64,000 nucleotides of DNA, taken from Lentimicrobiaceae bacterium. GTDB taxonomy: Bacteria > Bacteroidota > Bacteroidia > Bacteroidales > JAGNHN01. The notes beneath the pieces are model-generated. The model was not told where the DNA came from, ran no database searches, and saw only the letters and a list, made by a program, of their open reading frames with translations. Positions within the stretch are counted from its first letter, which is position 1, and every line of letters begins with the position of its first letter. This document shows positions 16,077 through 51,366 of the stretch, piece by piece. The translations under genes and the position numbers were made by a program. Location: NCBI GenBank assembly GCA_018001695.1, contig JAGNHN010000007.1, positions 1 to 64,000 on the forward strand, in the 5' to 3' direction.

Positions 16077-19000
16077 ATGCATATGGACAACAGGACACGC
16101 ATACCATTCAGCATTCTCCGGCCTCGCAAGGGGTTTGGATCGTCGTGGTGGGTTGCGTTGTTATTTGCTTTACTGCCCACCTTTTCCTGGGGGCAGCAGA
16201 TCACCCGACTGGAGTATTTCTTTGATACAGATCCGGGCTTTGGGAATGGTACACCTGTTCAGGTTACACCGGCTCCCGTCCTGGATAATTTCAACTTCAG
16301 TGCAAATATCAGCGCACTATCCGATGGATTCCATACCCTTTATATACGGGCCAGGGATGACAGCAGTCGCTGGGGTCATACCCTGCAGCGGCCTTTCTAC
16401 AAACTGACAGTAAGTCCACCGACCTACGGCATTGATTTACTGGAGTTTTTCTTTAATTCTGATCCGGGTCCGGGCAATGGTACCCCCATCCAGGTAACGC
16501 CAACCAGCGAGCTGGATCCTTTCAGCATCGCACTGGATATCACCAGCCTTCCGGATGGATTCAATACCCTGTATTTCAGGGCACGTAACCAGGGTGGCAG
16601 CTGGAGCATCCCGCTTTCACGCATCTTCTATAAACTCACCATTCAGCCTTCTCCCAGAACGCTGTCTTCCTATGAGTACTTCTTTAATACTGACCCGGGG
16701 CACGGGCAGGGTACGCCTGTTCCCGTAACAGTCAGCGGTGCCGTGGATTCCACTTCTTTTATGGTAGATATCTCCTCCTTCCAGGACGGATTTCATAGCA
16801 TCTATGTCAGAGGTAGAGACAACACGGGTGCATGGAGTCATCTGCAGTCACGCACATTTTTCAAGTTTTCTCTTCCCCCTGCTGCACTCCCTCTGGTTGA
16901 CCTTGAGTATTTCATTGATACGGATCCGGGTCTGAATAATGGTAACAAGATCGCTATTACACCGACCACCGATCTCAACAATTTCAGCGTTGCCATTGAT
17001 GTGAGTCAGTTAACCCAAGGTTTTCATAAGCTGGGATTCAGGTTCAGGAATTCAGCCAGTGTGTGGAGCCATACGAACCTTATTCCCTTTTACAGGGTTG
17101 CGCTTGACAGTCTTACGCCAGATATTGTCCGGATGGAGTATTTCTTCAATCAGGATCCTGGTTACGGACAGGCTACTCCCATCGCATTTACCCCTGACGA
17201 CAACCTGAGCATCAACCTGAACATAGACATCTCAGCATTAAACAACGGGTTCAACTTCCTGTTTATAAGAACATTGGATGGAACCGGTAAATGGAGCCAT
17301 AACCAGATGCGGGCCTTCTACAAGGAAGCCAGACAGGATACCCTTTTGCCTATTGTCTATGCCGAGTATTTCATCGATCAGGACCCTGGGTTTAATAACG
17401 GTATCACCATTCCTGTGGCAAGTGATTCTGCTTATCAGGATCTGGTTTTTTCCATTGACATTGACAGCCTTTCGGAGGGTTTCCACAAGTTATTCCTGCG
17501 AACACGCGATGCTAAGGGGAAATGGAGCATGACCACTTTCCAGCCCTTTTTCAAGCAGATCTTCAGGGATACCCTTGGTAAGATCGTTGCCGTTGAGTAC
17601 TTCTACGACACTGATCCAGGGGCGGGAAATGGTATATCCGTTCCGCTTACCCCCCAGGCCAATGTTCCATTCCTGGCCTGGAGTTTAAACCTGAGCGGAA
17701 TCAATTTCGGCCAACACAACCTGTTTATCCGCGCTAAGGATGAATTTGGAACCTGGAGTCTGACCAACCGCAAGGAGATCTTCTATTACCTGGATTCCTT
17801 GCCAACTGCCAGTTTGAGCGGTCCGACCGGCGTATGCATCCACGATACCGGCTATTTCGAGGTGACGCTCACAGGAACAGGCCCATGGACGATCGCTTTC
17901 AACAATGGTTTTCGGGTGGATACGATCACCAATATCACCGTAACACCACATTTCATTCCTGTCGTTCCTGATTCATCGGGCTTTTTCACGGCCCAGGTCC
18001 TGATGGTTCAGGATGTGTACTACACCGGTTTATATACCGGCATTCCTATTGAATATCAGGTTTTTCCGCTTCCAGTTGCGGCCGGAGAGATCAGCGGACC
18101 CAGGGATATCTGTGAGGGCAGCACCACTGTGGGCTTTTCCGTCTACTATATCGGGAACGCACAGTCCTATGAATGGACTGTTCCCGCAGGTGCAGTGATC
18201 ACCAGCTCAGGATATTATTGGAACTATGCCTACATCTATGTCAACTTCCCTCCGGGCGCCAGCTCCGGGCAGGTAAGTGTGCGCGGGGTGAATCACTGTG
18301 GCTACGGTCCTGCTTCTTATCTGAACATCACCATGCGGCCACATCCTGTTGTGGATGCTGGTCCTGATCAGTACATCCCCTGGGGAGATTCTGCTGTTTT
18401 GATGGCCATTCCATCAGGTGGAAACCCGCCTTACAGCTATTACTGGAGTCCCTGGTGGGTTTTTGACAACTATACCCTGCAGAGTCCAACTGCCTGGCCA
18501 GGCAGTACCCTGGGTGTTAGTGTCACCGTCAGTGATACATTCGGATGCTCTGCCACCGATGGGCTGACCATCTATGTTGGCAACCCCAATGGCACTACTT
18601 TCTCGGGCCATGTTCGCTATGACAATGCGGCCTCAAGCCAATTAGCCAATGCGCTTGTGATGATGAAACAAGGGCAGGATGTGATATTCGATACCCTGAC
18701 TGCTTTGGATGGAAGCTACCAGTTTGCCGAAGTGCCCGCCGGGTATTACGACCTTACCGCCTCCACCATGCAGGCCTGGGAAGCCGTCAATGCTACCGAT
18801 GCCCTTCTGATAGCCAAGCACTTCGTGGATTCTGTCACACTGCAGGGACTGAAGCTGACTGCCGCCGATGTGAATGCGTCCGGCTATATCAACGCTATAG
18901 ATGCCTTACAATGCATGAAGCGTTTTGTCGGTCTGATCGATTCCTTCCCCAGCGGAGACTGGTATTTCCAGAACCTGTGGGTCTATTCGAATCCTTCCGG

Positions 19001-19742
19001 CTTCCAGAGCCATGAGATCCGGGGGATTCTATTCGGTGATGTGGATGCCTCTTACAGCCCGGCAAAAAGTGCGCCAGGTGTCCAGCTGTCACGCCATGGT
19101 AAGCTGGCAGTCCCCACAGAAGGAACCATTGAGCTGCCCCTGTACACTGAAGAATCCCTCACACTGGGGGCCATGTCCCTGGTGTTGCACATTCCGGCCG
19201 GTATAGAAGTTCAATCGGTCCGTCTTCCCGACGGTTGGAAGGGTGATCTGGTTTTCAACCGTGAAGGAGAGCTGCTAAAAGTGGCCTGGTTCTCGTTGGA
19301 ACCTCTACAACTGAGCGCCGGCAGCGCCGTTCTGCTCATCAACGTCAGGTATGATTACCTCTCCAAAGCCAACTGGCGGGTCGGAGATGGCAGCAGCCTG
19401 GCCGATGCCAGCGGGCAGCCACTCACACGCGTAATGCTCTACTTCCCGGAATTGATCCCCGGGGAGCATGGCTTTGCGCTAGGGGAAAACTATCCCAATC
19501 CCTTCCGGGGAGAAACCAGTATTCCTTATGTCCTCCCTGCCGATGCAAAGGTCAGACTCACTGTCCTGAACCTGCTCGGGGAAGAGGTGTTGGAAGTCTT
19601 TAATGGCCAACAGCCTGCCGGTGAGCATGTATCTCATCTCAATGCGGCCCGGCTGTCTCCCGGTATCTATCATTACCGCCTCCTGGCTGAGACAGCGGGC
19701 AAGCGCTTCGAACAAACACGCAAGATGGTTGTCGTGAGGTAA
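16077..19742 (+). CDS. Large T9SS-exported protein with seven EYFxDxDPG repeats, dockerin-like and cohesin-like segments
   Basis: This 1221-residue protein has a signal peptide (hydrophobic 24-38, cleavage near SWGQQ). Residues about 42-578 are seven tandem ~77-residue repeats, each opening EYFxDxDPGxxNG and closing with GxWS...FYK. Ig/PKD-like segments follow, including AGPDQYIPWGDS and GGNPPYSYYWSP (about 755-838). A CarboxypepD_reg-like domain comes next (841-895). A dockerin-like pair of EF-hand-like loops follows (NATDALLIAKHFV, DVNASGYINAIDALQCMKRF; about 901-945), then a cohesin-like beta domain (about 1010-1120). The T9SS type A sorting domain (GENYPNPFRGETSIPYVL) runs from about 1132. 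Surface display is likely; function is unknown. The start could be the third codon (16083). Confidence 0.8.
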   Translation: MHMDNRTRIPFSILRPRKGFGSSWWVALLFALLPTFSWGQQITRLEYFFDTDPGFGNGTPVQVTPAPVLDNFNFSANISALSDGFHTLYIRARDDSSRWGHTLQRPFYKLTVSPPTYGIDLLEFFFNSDPGPGNGTPIQVTPTSELDPFSIALDITSLPDGFNTLYFRARNQGGSWSIPLSRIFYKLTIQPSPRTLSSYEYFFNTDPGHGQGTPVPVTVSGAVDSTSFMVDISSFQDGFHSIYVRGRDNTGAWSHLQSRTFFKFSLPPAALPLVDLEYFIDTDPGLNNGNKIAITPTTDLNNFSVAIDVSQLTQGFHKLGFRFRNSASVWSHTNLIPFYRVALDSLTPDIVRMEYFFNQDPGYGQATPIAFTPDDNLSINLNIDISALNNGFNFLFIRTLDGTGKWSHNQMRAFYKEARQDTLLPIVYAEYFIDQDPGFNNGITIPVASDSAYQDLVFSIDIDSLSEGFHKLFLRTRDAKGKWSMTTFQPFFKQIFRDTLGKIVAVEYFYDTDPGAGNGISVPLTPQANVPFLAWSLNLSGINFGQHNLFIRAKDEFGTWSLTNRKEIFYYLDSLPTASLSGPTGVCIHDTGYFEVTLTGTGPWTIAFNNGFRVDTITNITVTPHFIPVVPDSSGFFTAQVLMVQDVYYTGLYTGIPIEYQVFPLPVAAGEISGPRDICEGSTTVGFSVYYIGNAQSYEWTVPAGAVITSSGYYWNYAYIYVNFPPGASSGQVSVRGVNHCGYGPASYLNITMRPHPVVDAGPDQYIPWGDSAVLMAIPSGGNPPYSYYWSPWWVFDNYTLQSPTAWPGSTLGVSVTVSDTFGCSATDGLTIYVGNPNGTTFSGHVRYDNAASSQLANALVMMKQGQDVIFDTLTALDGSYQFAEVPAGYYDLTASTMQAWEAVNATDALLIAKHFVDSVTLQGLKLTAADVNASGYINAIDALQCMKRFVGLIDSFPSGDWYFQNLWVYSNPSGFQSHEIRGILFGDVDASYSPAKSAPGVQLSRHGKLAVPTEGTIELPLYTEESLTLGAMSLVLHIPAGIEVQSVRLPDGWKGDLVFNREGELLKVAWFSLEPLQLSAGSAVLLINVRYDYLSKANWRVGDGSSLADASGQPLTRVMLYFPELIPGEHGFALGENYPNPFRGETSIPYVLPADAKVRLTVLNLLGEEVLEVFNGQQPAGEHVSHLNAARLSPGIYHYRLLAETAGKRFEQTRKMVVVR
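16200..17813 (+). repeat. Seven tandem ~231-bp coding repeats (EYFxDxDPG module)
   Basis: The repeats start at 16200 and recur about every 230 bp, with the last starting at 17583. Conserved positions are E-[YF]-F-[FIY]-[DN]-x-DPG near the start, a central DISxLxxGFHxLYxR strand and a final GxWSxxxxxxFYK. Nucleotide identity between units is only moderate, so this is an old duplication rather than a recent expansion. The Asp/Asn-rich opening could bind calcium, but this is inference. Confidence 0.85.
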
Positions 19743-19782: not shown

Positions 19783-19840
19783 ACAGGAGTGTTGCTTACC
19801 AGGCTTTTACATGCCGGATGCAGCACTCCTGTTGTTTTAT
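19783..19840 (+). terminator. Hairpin terminator after the T9SS repeat gene
   Basis: The arms acaggagtgttgc (19783-19795) and gcagcactcctgt (19820-19832) form a 13-bp stem with one G-T wobble and a 24-nt loop, followed by tgttttat. It lies 41 bp after the preceding stop codon. It also argues against starting gatE at the in-frame ATG at 19811, which sits inside this hairpin. Confidence 0.65.
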
Positions 19841-19862: not shown

Positions 19863-19870
19863 TAAGTTTG
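19863..19870 (+). promoter_or_regulatory. Candidate -7 box (TAAGTTTG) for gatED
   Basis: TAAGTTTG matches TAnnTTTG and lies 33 bp before the ATG at 19904. It supports that start and an independent transcript for gatE, gatD and the following gene. Confidence 0.5.
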
Positions 19871-19903: not shown

Positions 19904-21946
19904 ATGGGCCGCAACAATTCAACAACTTCCAAGGATACGCCAGCAGCATCCCCCCGTCGACAACACGAAGCCAATGCCATATATGAACAAAGCCGCGAAG
20001 CAATAGGCTATGTCAGTCTGAAAAATGCCACACAGGCTGATTATGACCGGATAGGTTTTATGTCAGGTCTGGAAGTACACCAGCAGCTTTTGACACGGCG
20101 CAAGCTATTCTGCCGCTGCCCGGCCGGACTCTACCACGCCAGTGATGATTATGACGCGGAGATCATCCGGCATATGCGCCCCACCCTCAGTGAGTTGGGC
20201 GAATATGATGGTACGGCTTTGATGGAGTTCAGGACGAAGAAAGAGATCATCTATAGAATCAAGAATGAGACGGCCTGTACGTATGAGGTGGATGATACGC
20301 CTCCGTTTACCGTGGACCATGAAGCCCTTGATATCGCCATCAGAATCTCCCTCCTCTCGAAACTCAATATTGTCGGGGAAGTCCATATTACCCGCAAGCA
20401 ATACCTCGATGGCAGTATTCCAACCGGTTTTCAACGTACTGCCATTATTGGGGTCGAGGGAGAGATATCATTGAAGAATAAAAAGGTCAGGCTGATCCAG
20501 TTAAGTCTGGAAGAGGACAGCTGCCGGGAGATCTCAGACGTTGGTCACACACGGATTTATAAGACCGACAGACTGGGTATGCCGCTGATCGAGACTGTTA
20601 CCTACCCTGATATGGTTAACCCTGAGGAAGTCAAGGAGGCCTGTGATGTGATCCGTTTTCTGAATCGCTCCACCGGTTTGGTACGGACCGGATCGGGGGC
20701 GGGCCGACAGGATGTTAATGTGAGTTGTAAGGGAGGTACACGTGTGGAGATCAAGGGTGTAGCTCATACGAAATGGATACCGGCACTGACCCATATTGAA
20801 GCCTTCCGGCAATGGGCACTCCTGCATCTCCGTTCCCGCTTGCGCGATAAGATTGAAGATATTCCTTCCTGGGGGGTAAGTCATGAATACCTGCCTTACC
20901 ATTTCTTCAATGGTACATCCTATGCTCCGTTGAAAGACGCGAAGAAAAACAAGTTCAAGATAATGGCCATCAACCTGCCTGGTTTTAAGGGCATGATGGC
21001 CCACTTCACGCAGCCCGGGTACTGTTTTGCCGATGAGATTCGTGACCGGCTGAAAGTCATCGCCTGCCTGGAGCGCCCCAATATGGTATGTTCCGAAGAC
21101 CTGCATGAAGGACTGGAGGATGCACATTGGGATCATGTCCGGGAGCTGCTTTGCAGTGGAGCGGATGATGCCCAGATTATCCTTTGGGGTCCTGAAGCCG
21201 ATATGGCTACTGCCCTCGAGACGGTGGAAGAACGTTGTAAAATGGCCTTCGAAGGCGTACCGAATGAGACCAGGAAGTCGTTTGAAGATGGCACAACCAT
21301 TTTTGAGCGCGTACTTCCGGGCGCTGACCGCATGTATCCGGATACGGACAGTCCTCCCATTCCGCTGGAAAACAGTCATATAGATAATCTTGGTCAGGAC
21401 CTGCCGCATGAGGTGTTCCACCGTTACCAACAACTGAAATCCTGGGGCATACCGGAGGATACCTATACTTATATATTCCGTCGAAACCTGTTCCCTGTTG
21501 CACAGCGGATCATCGCAGAACTGGAAATGGATCCTGTTTTCACAGGCACCTTCCTTGGGCATCGGCTCAAATGGGTTGAAGGGCATTACAAAGAACAACC
21601 CGGTTTCAGTTATGACATCCTGATCGCGCTCTTCCGGTTCCTGAAGACACAGGGTTTGGAGCCAGAGCTGGCAAGGCGCATGTTGCCTGTTCTTTATCAA
21701 TACCCGAAGATGGACTTTGCCTCTGTTCTTACAAGCCTGAAATTCAAGCGGATGAGCGAGAGCGACCTGGCATCCAGGATCCCCTTCCTTCGCGAGAAAT
21801 TCAGACAGATCCGGATTTCAGACAATGCTGAAGCGGAGGCCAGGTGGATTATGGGACAGCTCAGCCTGTTGGCCACCGGCAATATGCCCCTCGAAAAGCT
21901 AAGGGTTGCTATTGCAGAGAATGCCGACACGAATCAACACTCATGA
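19904..21946 (+). CDS. gatE: Glu-tRNA(Gln) amidotransferase subunit E (archaeal-type GatDE)
   Basis: This is the kinase/transamidase subunit that phosphorylates Glu on Glu-tRNA(Gln) and amidates it with ammonia from GatD. The GatB/GatE cradle signature is clear: GLEVHQQLLTRRKLFCRC, RPTLSELGEYDGTALMEF, DDTPPF, QYLDGSIPTGFQRT and TRIYKTDRLGMPLIETVT. Residues in GFKGMMAHFTQPGYCFADEIRDR mark the GAD-type insertion that separates GatE from GatB. A helical tail domain ends the protein. The 680 residues include an N-terminal extension of about 55 residues, Ser/Thr/Gln-rich. A start at 19811 is rejected because a terminator and a promoter box lie inside it. gatD follows 20 bp later. GatDE is textbook archaeal, so bacterial occurrence is notable. 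Confidence 0.9.
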   Translation: MGRNNSTTSKDTPAASPRRQHEANAIYEQSREAIGYVSLKNATQADYDRIGFMSGLEVHQQLLTRRKLFCRCPAGLYHASDDYDAEIIRHMRPTLSELGEYDGTALMEFRTKKEIIYRIKNETACTYEVDDTPPFTVDHEALDIAIRISLLSKLNIVGEVHITRKQYLDGSIPTGFQRTAIIGVEGEISLKNKKVRLIQLSLEEDSCREISDVGHTRIYKTDRLGMPLIETVTYPDMVNPEEVKEACDVIRFLNRSTGLVRTGSGAGRQDVNVSCKGGTRVEIKGVAHTKWIPALTHIEAFRQWALLHLRSRLRDKIEDIPSWGVSHEYLPYHFFNGTSYAPLKDAKKNKFKIMAINLPGFKGMMAHFTQPGYCFADEIRDRLKVIACLERPNMVCSEDLHEGLEDAHWDHVRELLCSGADDAQIILWGPEADMATALETVEERCKMAFEGVPNETRKSFEDGTTIFERVLPGADRMYPDTDSPPIPLENSHIDNLGQDLPHEVFHRYQQLKSWGIPEDTYTYIFRRNLFPVAQRIIAELEMDPVFTGTFLGHRLKWVEGHYKEQPGFSYDILIALFRFLKTQGLEPELARRMLPVLYQYPKMDFASVLTSLKFKRMSESDLASRIPFLREKFRQIRISDNAEAEARWIMGQLSLLATGNMPLEKLRVAIAENADTNQHS

Positions 21947-21966
21947 ATGATAAGCGGAAATAAACC

Positions 21967-23352
21967 ATGAACGAAGATCTTTTCCAGGGATATAAGGGCG
22001 AAGCGCTGGAAGTGCTAAAGAAATTCAATGTCAGGGTGTGGGGCCAGACCCGTGTGGAAACAAGCAGGGGTGTCTTCATCGGTACTATCCTGCCCAGGGC
22101 GGAGAATGATGACGACCAGCATATTGTATTGAAGATCCCCACGGGTTACAATATTGGGCTGGACATTAAAACCATCACCCAGATGGTGGAGACAGGCTAT
22201 AAGAAGGCGAATTACAAGATCCCTGAAAAGCAGTTTCCCGTGACAAAGGGTCTTCCCAGCGTCAAGCTGTTCGGAACCGGCGGCACCATTGCTTCCCGGC
22301 TTGACTACCGCACTGGAGCCGTTATCCCTGCTTTCTCTCCGGGGGAGCTGTATGGCGCCGTTCCTGAACTGGCCGACATCTGTAATCTGGAAACAGAAAA
22401 GCTTTTTGCTGTGTTCAGCGAGAACATGGGGCCTGAGCAATACAAGAAACTGGCCATTGCCATTGGCAAGGAGATAGAGAACGGGGTAGATGGCATTGTC
22501 ATCGGACATGGTACCGATACACTGCATCATACAGGGGCAGCCTTGACCTTCATGGTACAGAACTCGCCGGTTCCCATTGTTTTGGTGGGATCTCAGCGTT
22601 CCAGTGACCGTCCCAGCTCGGATGCAGCCCTCAACCTGATGCATGCCATGCATACGGCTGGACATTCAGATATTGCGGAAGTGATGGTTTGCATGTTCGG
22701 CCCTACTTCTGATGAGTATGGCCTGCTTCACAAGGGAACACGGGTCCGAAAGATGCATTCGAGTTACCGAAGCACTTTCCGCACCATCGGCGACATTCCC
22801 CTGGCCATGGTTACACGTAATTCGGTGACACCGCTGCAAAAGCAGTACAACCACAGGCGTAAAGACAGGAAAGTCAACATCCTGCCCTATTTCGACGAAA
22901 GGGTGACCATGCTGTATTATTATCCCCGCATGAATCCCGATATTCTTCATTCCATCATTGATCTGGGTTATAAAGGCATTGTGTTTGTTGGAACCGGCCT
23001 GGGTCATGTGAACAAGGAGCTTTATCCGGCCATTGAACGGGCGCAGAAGGAAGGCGTACATATGTACATGACGCTGCAGACCATCTGGGGCTATGTGCAT
23101 ATGTTTGTGTATGATACGGGTAGGGATATGATGGCGAAAGGAATCATCCCCACCGGAAACATGTTGCCCGAAGTTGCGTTTATTAAGCTGGGATGGGCCC
23201 TGGGTCAAACCCATGACCCCGAAGAAGTAAAGAAACTTATGCTTACACCTGTTAATGATGAAATCACGGAAAGAGAACCCTATAATGGCTACCTCGTCTA
23301 CCAGGGCGGTGTCCCGGAGGTGGAAGCCTTTATACAAAAGGTTCACAAATAG
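21967..23352 (+). CDS. gatD: Glu-tRNA(Gln) amidotransferase subunit D (archaeal-type GatDE)
   Basis: This is the amidase subunit that releases ammonia from Gln or Asn and channels it to GatE. The 461 residues comprise an N-terminal GatD-specific small beta domain (about 1-90: VRVWGQTRVETSRGVFIGTI, HIVLKIPTGYNIGLDI) and an asparaginase-fold domain. Catalytic elements are seen in GTGGTIAS (Thr107), GHGTDT (Thr183, Asp184) and a lysine in RKMHSSYRSTF (Lys262). The N-terminal domain and placement directly after gatE distinguish it from a plain asparaginase, which is encoded separately at 50311. The 3' end overlaps the next gene in another frame. Confidence 0.92.
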   Translation: MNEDLFQGYKGEALEVLKKFNVRVWGQTRVETSRGVFIGTILPRAENDDDQHIVLKIPTGYNIGLDIKTITQMVETGYKKANYKIPEKQFPVTKGLPSVKLFGTGGTIASRLDYRTGAVIPAFSPGELYGAVPELADICNLETEKLFAVFSENMGPEQYKKLAIAIGKEIENGVDGIVIGHGTDTLHHTGAALTFMVQNSPVPIVLVGSQRSSDRPSSDAALNLMHAMHTAGHSDIAEVMVCMFGPTSDEYGLLHKGTRVRKMHSSYRSTFRTIGDIPLAMVTRNSVTPLQKQYNHRRKDRKVNILPYFDERVTMLYYYPRMNPDILHSIIDLGYKGIVFVGTGLGHVNKELYPAIERAQKEGVHMYMTLQTIWGYVHMFVYDTGRDMMAKGIIPTGNMLPEVAFIKLGWALGQTHDPEEVKKLMLTPVNDEITEREPYNGYLVYQGGVPEVEAFIQKVHK

Positions 23353-50314: not shown

Positions 50315-51366
50315 AACCGGAATTATCCAGCCTTGAAGCCAAACAGGAAACGGCCTTGCTGGTCATCTACACAGGTGGGACCATTGGCATGATGCAGGAT
50401 CCGGTCACCGGATCCCTGTCCCCTTTCAATTTCGATCATATCTTCCAGCATATGCCGGTGCTCAGCCGGGTCAGGTACCGCATCGGACATCATTGTTTTG
50501 ATCCTTTGATCGACTCTTCTGAAGTGAAACCTTCTTTCTGGCAGGAGCTGGCCACGGTGATCGCCAATGCCTATGCCGACTACGATGGCTTCGTTGTGCT
50601 GCATGGCACGGATACCATGGCCTACACCGCTTCGATGCTCAGCTTCATGCTTGAAAACCTGAATAAGCCTGTGATCCTCACCGGATCGCAGCTGCCTTTG
50701 GGGATGGTGAGATCAGACGGAAGGGAGAACTTCATCACCGCGCTGGAGATTGCGGCTGCACGGCAGGATGATACCCCGCTGGTACCAGAGGTGGCCATCT
50801 ATTTTGAGAATAAACTTTTCAGGGGAAATCGGACAACCAAGTTCAATGCCGAGGATTTCAATGCCTTTGTATCCGAGAACTACCCTATTCTGGCGGAAGC
50901 CGGTGTTCATATACGCTATAACCTGCCCCATCTCCGCAAACCGAATTTTAAAAACCTGCGCCTGCACACCCAGGTTGACCCCAATGTCGCCATCCTGAAG
51001 CTGTTTCCCGGGATTACACCGAACGTGGTATCAGCACTGCTTTCAGCGCCCGGTCTGCAGGGTATCATCCTTGAGACCTTCGGATCAGGGAATGCCCCTA
51101 CCGACGCCTGGTTCATTGATTTGCTCAAGGAAGCCATCGGGCGTGGCATTACCATCATGAATGTGACCCAGTGCAAAGGAGGCGCCGTGGAAATGGGTAG
51201 GTATGCCAGCAGCCTGAAACTGGAGGAAATCGGCGTGGTTAGTGGACGTGATATCACAACCGAGTCGGCCACGGCCAAAATGATGTTCCTGCTGGGCCAG
51301 GGATTCAAAGGAACAAGCCTGAAAAAATGGCTGGAGACATCGCTGATCGGGGAGATGTCGGTATAA
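50311..51366 (+). CDS. ansA: Type I (cytoplasmic) L-asparaginase
   Basis: This 351-residue enzyme hydrolyses asparagine to aspartate and ammonia. The two catalytic loops are IYTGGTIGMMQDPVTG and LHGTDTMAYTASML, with the conserved downstream GSQLPLGMVRSDGREN. No signal peptide is present. Unlike GatD at 21967, it lacks the N-terminal amidotransferase domain and is not next to gatE. It is translationally coupled to tatD. Confidence 0.94.
   Translation: MKPELSSLEAKQETALLVIYTGGTIGMMQDPVTGSLSPFNFDHIFQHMPVLSRVRYRIGHHCFDPLIDSSEVKPSFWQELATVIANAYADYDGFVVLHGTDTMAYTASMLSFMLENLNKPVILTGSQLPLGMVRSDGRENFITALEIAAARQDDTPLVPEVAIYFENKLFRGNRTTKFNAEDFNAFVSENYPILAEAGVHIRYNLPHLRKPNFKNLRLHTQVDPNVAILKLFPGITPNVVSALLSAPGLQGIILETFGSGNAPTDAWFIDLLKEAIGRGITIMNVTQCKGGAVEMGRYASSLKLEEIGVVSGRDITTESATAKMMFLLGQGFKGTSLKKWLETSLIGEMSV

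Follow-up and report, generated by a model that had tools for sequence, protein, structure and literature searches.

An adjacent gatE-gatD amidotransferase gene pair in Bacteroidales genomes that also encode glutaminyl-tRNA synthetase

Here, we present an analysis of gatE and gatD, a gene pair encoding a GatDE-type amidotransferase in a Lentimicrobiaceae bacterium of the order Bacteroidales. The window, i.e., the whole stretch of DNA analysed, comprises positions 1 to 64,000 of contig JAGNHN010000007.1 (GCA_018001695.1). This contig is C75 of a 3.24-Mb metagenome-assembled genome (MAG) of 99 contigs, which is 97.8% complete with a contamination estimate of 0.74%. gatE (19904..21946, + strand) encodes the GatE-type subunit (kinase/transamidase), and gatD (21967..23352, + strand) encodes the glutaminase/asparaginase-type subunit; the two open reading frames (ORFs) are uninterrupted neighbours, the gatE stop and the gatD start being 20 nt apart. 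The first-pass annotation of this locus described an archaeal-type GatDE in a bacterial genome, and family models, motifs and structure matches agree that this is a true, adjacent gatE-gatD pair.

GatE matches Pfam GatB_N (E=1.2e-44) and scores 383.3 bits against NCBIfam TIGR00134, above the cut-off of 319.55, and 443.3 against the stricter NF003107, narrowly below the cut-off of 456. Among solved structures, its sequence is closest to the archaeal GatE chains in 2d6f and 1zq1. The active-site motifs GLEVHQQL, LEEDSCRE, DRLGMPLIE and GRQDVNVS are kept, and the Mg/ATP motifs of the kinase domain are present. An AlphaFold2 model built from 52 relatives (pLDDT 81.8) has archaeal GatE as its best match (E=1.9e-38, TM-score by target 0.75-0.78), with GatB next. 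The longest gatE ORF (711 aa) begins with the ATG at 19811; however, the alternative ATG at 19904 (MGRNNS) is the likelier start because a TAnnTTTG box lies between the two ATGs and relatives start near the later one. This possible Bacteroidetes −7 box (TAAGTTTG, 19863..19870, + strand) is located ~34 nt 5' of the likely start and has no clear −33 element; with 17 boxes of this kind on the + strand of the window, about the number expected by chance, it is weak evidence.

Within GatE (all + strand), the first part of the GatB_N-type catalytic domain (20054..20830) is followed by a divergent, AspRS-like GAD insertion (20831..21250), the second part of the catalytic domain (PNETRKSFEDGTTIFERVLPGADRMYPDTD, 21251..21370), a helical domain (21371..21610) and a C-terminal YqeY-like tail (21611..21925) that is strongly remodelled in Bacteroidales. 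Pfam GAD was found in 22 of 52 GatE members but not in the window protein, whose fold matches archaeal GatE; together, these observations bear out the GAD-type insertion reported by the first-pass annotation. Similarly, Pfam GatB_Yqey was found in 31 of the 52 members (best 1.6e-8) but not in the window protein, the tail of which is modelled with a pLDDT of mostly ~90 or more. The per-member scans and the model rule out that the tail was replaced outright and point to a divergent YqeY-like tail. Because this tail and GAD are recognizable in many members and the tail is modelled confidently, tRNA binding by GatE is probably kept. The N-terminal extension of about 55 residues, initially described as extra to archaeal forms, has two components: ~25 residues (NYExTxxxIGYVxRKxATQ) ahead of the catalytic domain are conserved throughout the Bacteroidales GatE clade and include a clade-specific, confidently modelled helix (residues 49-65 of the 711-aa ORF; 19955..20005), while the 20-25 residues before it are poorly conserved and have low model confidence.

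GatD matches Pfam GatD_N, Asparaginase and Asparaginase_C, scores 485.8 against TIGR02153 (cut-off 324) and 489.6 against NF003217 (cut-off 310), and has the archaeal GatD chains of 2d6f and 1zq1 as its nearest solved structures. The GatD-specific N-terminal domain (22051..22176, + strand) and the asparaginase fold with the catalytic Thr/Thr-Asp/Lys motifs (22261..23241, + strand) are as previously described, and the motifs GTGGTIAS, HGTDT and RKMHS confirm that the catalytic residues are intact. A C-terminal extension (PYNGYLVYQGGVPEVEAFIQKVHK, 23278..23349, + strand) is common to the Bacteroidota GatD proteins compared; the archaeal GatD structures lack its last part, which begins at about VYQGG. 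TIGR00134 and TIGR02153 are already in annotation pipelines and would name such genes. A second, stand-alone asparaginase-family gene, distinct from gatD, is located at 50356-50925 (359-aa open frame) on the same contig.

The initial proposal that the contig is bacterial is well founded. A gene for a protein sorted by the type IX secretion system (T9SS), with a Por_Secre_tail, ends 161 nt 5' of gatE; in an independent sister MAG, RA.bin61 (L137; apparently the contig of G508/L081), the two genes that come after gatE-gatD are the same as in the window; and there are isolates among the carriers. The conserved gene order in an independent MAG makes contamination very unlikely. The GC content of gatE (51.2%) and gatD (50.5%) agrees with that of the window (50.0%), as do the values for third codon positions (GC3). 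The T9SS gene directly 5' of gatE (16077-19742) encodes 1221 aa; besides the sorting tail, its product has PKD-like, CarboxypepD_reg and dockerin type I domains.

The first-pass annotation considered, as one possibility, that the host kept an uncommon lineage of GatDE. In contrast, 121 of the 295 species genomes from this order (41%) pass the GatE cut-off, and so do 30 of 395 genomes of the phylum, i.e., the window's own genome and 29 from other classes; that these 29 are all from other classes reflects that the few same-order members sampled belong to lineages without GatE. A scan of 84,980 species genomes yielded at least 561 confirmed GatE relatives. Most genomes compared are MAGs, and the best 80 relatives are mostly from Bacteroidales MAGs; isolates also occur among these 80, including Perlabentimonas gracilis, Labilibaculum euxinus, Labilibaculum sp. 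K2S and Marinifilum flexuosum DSM 21950. Among the matches listed, the hosts are overwhelmingly bacterial. Of 129 loci, 116 have gatD 3' of gatE in the same orientation; in 9 of the other 13, the locus ends before gatD could be seen. Across the loci compared, no other neighbour genes are widely conserved, leaving no operon partner that would name a substrate, and no GatD match was found in PLSDB plasmids at E 1e-60.

Several loci deviate from this pattern. L177, L189, L202, L213 and L093 have gatE without gatD in at least 4 kb downstream, and gatD may be elsewhere or lost. In L082:11348-13273 and L084:7279-8511, single genes (for a GH16 hydrolase and a T9SS-tagged M28 peptidase, respectively) are located between gatE and gatD. 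In L030, L170, L184 and L207, a GatE of the Bacteroidales type is found in genomes assigned to another class of the phylum, to Candidatus Aminicenantes or to Archangium, through either transfer or misbinned contigs. L028 (G357) has a divergent pair, with GatE 35% and GatD 57% identical to those of the window, and its GatE falls outside the main Bacteroidota clade.

GatDE was initially placed in the archaeal route to Gln-tRNA that operates instead of glutaminyl-tRNA synthetase (GlnRS). This role is not supported here: contig C27 of the host genome encodes GlnRS (TIGR00440, 739 bits; cut-off 425.8) with a bacterial-type GluRS close by. AspRS, AsnRS and LysRS are also present (three class IIb matches, named from ORF length and rank). 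As to the other routes raised by the first-pass annotation, GatA has no match in the genome and GatB none beyond GatE itself. Among same-order GatDE-bearing genomes, 60 of 64 have at least two class Ic synthetases; of the remaining four, two lack a GlnRS-type match and two a GluRS-type match, as expected of gaps in MAGs. That GlnRS accompanies GatDE in this genome and in nearly all other carriers of the order argues that GatDE does not replace GlnRS. Because AsnRS is present, a function in Asn-tRNA synthesis is unlikely and Asp-tRNA-Asn is no obvious alternative substrate. Two genomes of another class (G314 and G287; loci L004 and L005) have GatDE and GatA but a single class Ic synthetase, which is GluRS-sized; in these genomes, GatDE or GatCAB must supply Gln-tRNA.

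Archaeal GatDE is reported to read the D-loop and the A1:U72 pair of tRNA-Gln (PMC9499178); the tail is described as selecting tRNA-Gln via its fit to the small D-loop, and the helical domain as anchoring the T-stem side (PMC4810234). Both host tRNA-Gln genes (CUG and UUG) have U1-A72 and thus lack the A1:U72 determinant, and the other tRNA-Gln genes read from same-order GatDE-bearing genomes also have U1-A72. A long-form tRNA-Gln with an 8-nt D-loop was found in 94 of 126 GatDE-bearing genomes versus 46 of 169 others (295 genomes in total, 94/32/46/123; naive odds ratio ~8), and also in two GatDE-bearing genomes of other classes. However, exceptions to this association are numerous and the five informative families disagree in direction, so that shared ancestry may explain it; we regard a special tRNA-Gln tied to GatDE as a lead only. 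One GatDE-bearing genome (G421) has an odd tRNA-Gln-like gene (L311:1501-1576) with an unusual anticodon arm and a long-form D-loop. Both host tRNA-Gln genes are on the gatDE contig beyond the window (C75:71853 and C75:86379), ~50 and 65 kb away, which is probably due to chance.

In a GatE tree rooted with GatB, 39 of 40 Bacteroidota GatE sequences form one clade (97/87) apart from the two archaeal sequences, which were taken from the structure alignments; with these two only, the root is weakly tested. The clade of Bacteroidales-type GatE (100/100) has a stem of 1.67 changes per site versus 0.33 for the clade of the other classes. This change is concentrated in the tRNA-choosing helical and tail domains more than in the catalytic domain. 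Specifically, the first part of the catalytic domain has a mean identity of 66% between Bacteroidales and bacteria of other classes and 42% to archaea in both groups, while the tail is 14% identical to that of archaea in Bacteroidales versus 21% in the other classes. GatD is ~68% identical across Bacteroidota classes. Both genes are under strong purifying selection (dN/dS ~0.04-0.09 for gatE and 0.01-0.04 for gatD, where dS was estimable). GatE and GlnRS distances are correlated (28 genomes; Mantel r=0.38, p=0.003), consistent with largely resident genes that were for the most part inherited vertically, with some noise or transfer.

Sequence and structure establish the fold, the active-site motifs, the pairing of the two genes, their purifying selection and the co-occurrence with GlnRS, and the chemistry is almost surely that of known GatDE. 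Our preferred explanation, which we hold to be just on the probable side, is that gatE-gatD represents a resident Bacteroidota GatDE subfamily that acts on misacylated Glu-tRNA-Gln alongside GlnRS. According to this model, GatD would release ammonia from Gln or Asn, and GatE, with ATP, would activate the γ-carboxylate of the tRNA-bound Glu and then amidate it. The substrate would be Glu-tRNA-Gln with the bacterial U1-A72, formed in small amounts by misacylation by GluRS, and the pair would provide a corrective or second route beside GlnRS; the helical and tail domains may have been reshaped to suit a host tRNA-Gln of the bacterial and not the archaeal type. The retained YqeY-like tail and overall fold lead us to favour a Glu-tRNA-Gln amidotransferase. 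Several observations speak against it. The residue of the host GluRS aligned with Arg358 of Thermus thermophilus (Tth) GluRS, a position linked to discrimination between tRNA-Glu and tRNA-Gln, is Arg, which suggests that the host GluRS is of the discriminating type; such an enzyme would yield little Glu-tRNA-Gln. The GatE tail is only 13% identical between the two bacterial groups, though 40% within Bacteroidales, and the basic RGK-type motif near its end in archaea and other classes is xGN in Bacteroidales; a divergent tail without this motif could indicate a different substrate. Moreover, the Mantel correlation is modest, and our literature search found no activity data for any bacterial GatDE.

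A serious rival, which we consider less probable but plausible, is that GatDE was neofunctionalized, i.e., that the catalytic pair was kept while the substrate became another aminoacyl-tRNA or a non-tRNA carboxylate, with GlnRS already supplying Gln-tRNA. GlnRS makes GatDE dispensable on paper, both synthetases being retained in 60 of the 64 genomes, GatE has a long stem, the change lies mainly in the half of the protein that chooses the tRNA, and the host lacks the archaeal A1:U72 determinant. On the other hand, the YqeY-like tail is still recognizable in 31 of 52 members, GatE keeps its overall fold, no linked gene names another substrate, and AsnRS is present. In a related and slightly more tentative proposal, the tRNA-reading half of Bacteroidales GatDE was rebuilt for another aminoacyl-tRNA, a special tRNA-Gln isoacceptor or a non-tRNA carboxylate, while the ammonia and kinase parts were conserved; if true, bacterial GatDE would have a use unrelated to the archaeal route.

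The remaining explanations fare worse. That GatDE and a non-discriminating GluRS supply the cell's Gln-tRNA would agree with the intact GatDE and with the single GluRS-sized class Ic synthetase in G314 and G287; nevertheless, the full GlnRS, the Arg358 equivalent in GluRS and the U1-A72 of tRNA-Gln make this improbable. The first-pass annotation also considered acquisition by transfer. A recent transfer from archaea into the host lineage is suggested by a family otherwise described from archaea only; however, the wide presence in the order, the Bacteroidota clade apart from the two archaeal GatE, the local GC and GC3 and the shared GatD extension make it very improbable, while an ancient transfer into the phylum stays compatible with a tree containing two archaeal sequences. 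Patchy presence in the order suggests repeated loss and might indicate a decaying remnant without function, but dN/dS well below 0.1 and invariant active sites leave this barely credible. Finally, although the genome is a MAG of 99 contigs, the probability of an assembly or binning artefact, such as a chimera or archaeal contamination, is close to nil given the T9SS gene upstream, the sister-MAG synteny, the local GC, the isolates among at least 561 relatives that are overwhelmingly bacterial among the matches listed, and the low contamination estimate.

According to one review, GatDE is "now only" found in archaea (PMC9499178), and a second makes the same statement (PMC8007984); both treat archaea-only GatDE as a pillar of how Gln entered the genetic code. 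We found no description of a bacterial GatDE among open-licence papers, which does not prove its absence. Widespread bacterial GatDE coexisting with GlnRS breaks the archaea-only rule and provides a second domain with GatDE for tree-building. It also raises the puzzle of why a Glu-tRNA-Gln amidotransferase is kept despite GlnRS, a question that the cultured carriers make testable.

Compared with the archaeal GatDE of Methanothermobacter thermautotrophicus (2d6f) and Pyrococcus abyssi (1zq1), the pair has the same two subunits, domain order and active-site motifs, as well as the best fold match, with ~42% identity in the GatE catalytic domain and 44% in GatD. In contrast to archaeal GatDE, it has the N-terminal GatE helix, the remodelled helical domain and tail, and the additional C-terminal end of GatD, and it occurs in a host with GlnRS and U1-A72 tRNA-Gln. 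GatE and GatD of other Bacteroidota classes (e.g., G132, G314 and G393) similarly form an adjacent pair with the GatD C-terminal extension and a GatD of ~68% identity; however, most of these carriers that were checked also have GatA, and their GatE tail is nearer to that of archaea (21% versus 14%). GatB of bacterial GatCAB shares the GatB_N kinase domain and the YqeY-like tail but has no GAD insertion, and unlike organisms with GatCAB, the window genome has no match to GatA or GatB. A parallel in gene content is found in Deinococcus, Thermus and Bdellovibrio, which keep an amidotransferase beside GlnRS and AsnRS (PMC4206432); in these bacteria, however, it is GatCAB that is kept, and its discussion centres on the formation of Asn-tRNA, while GatDE is known for Glu-tRNA-Gln only.

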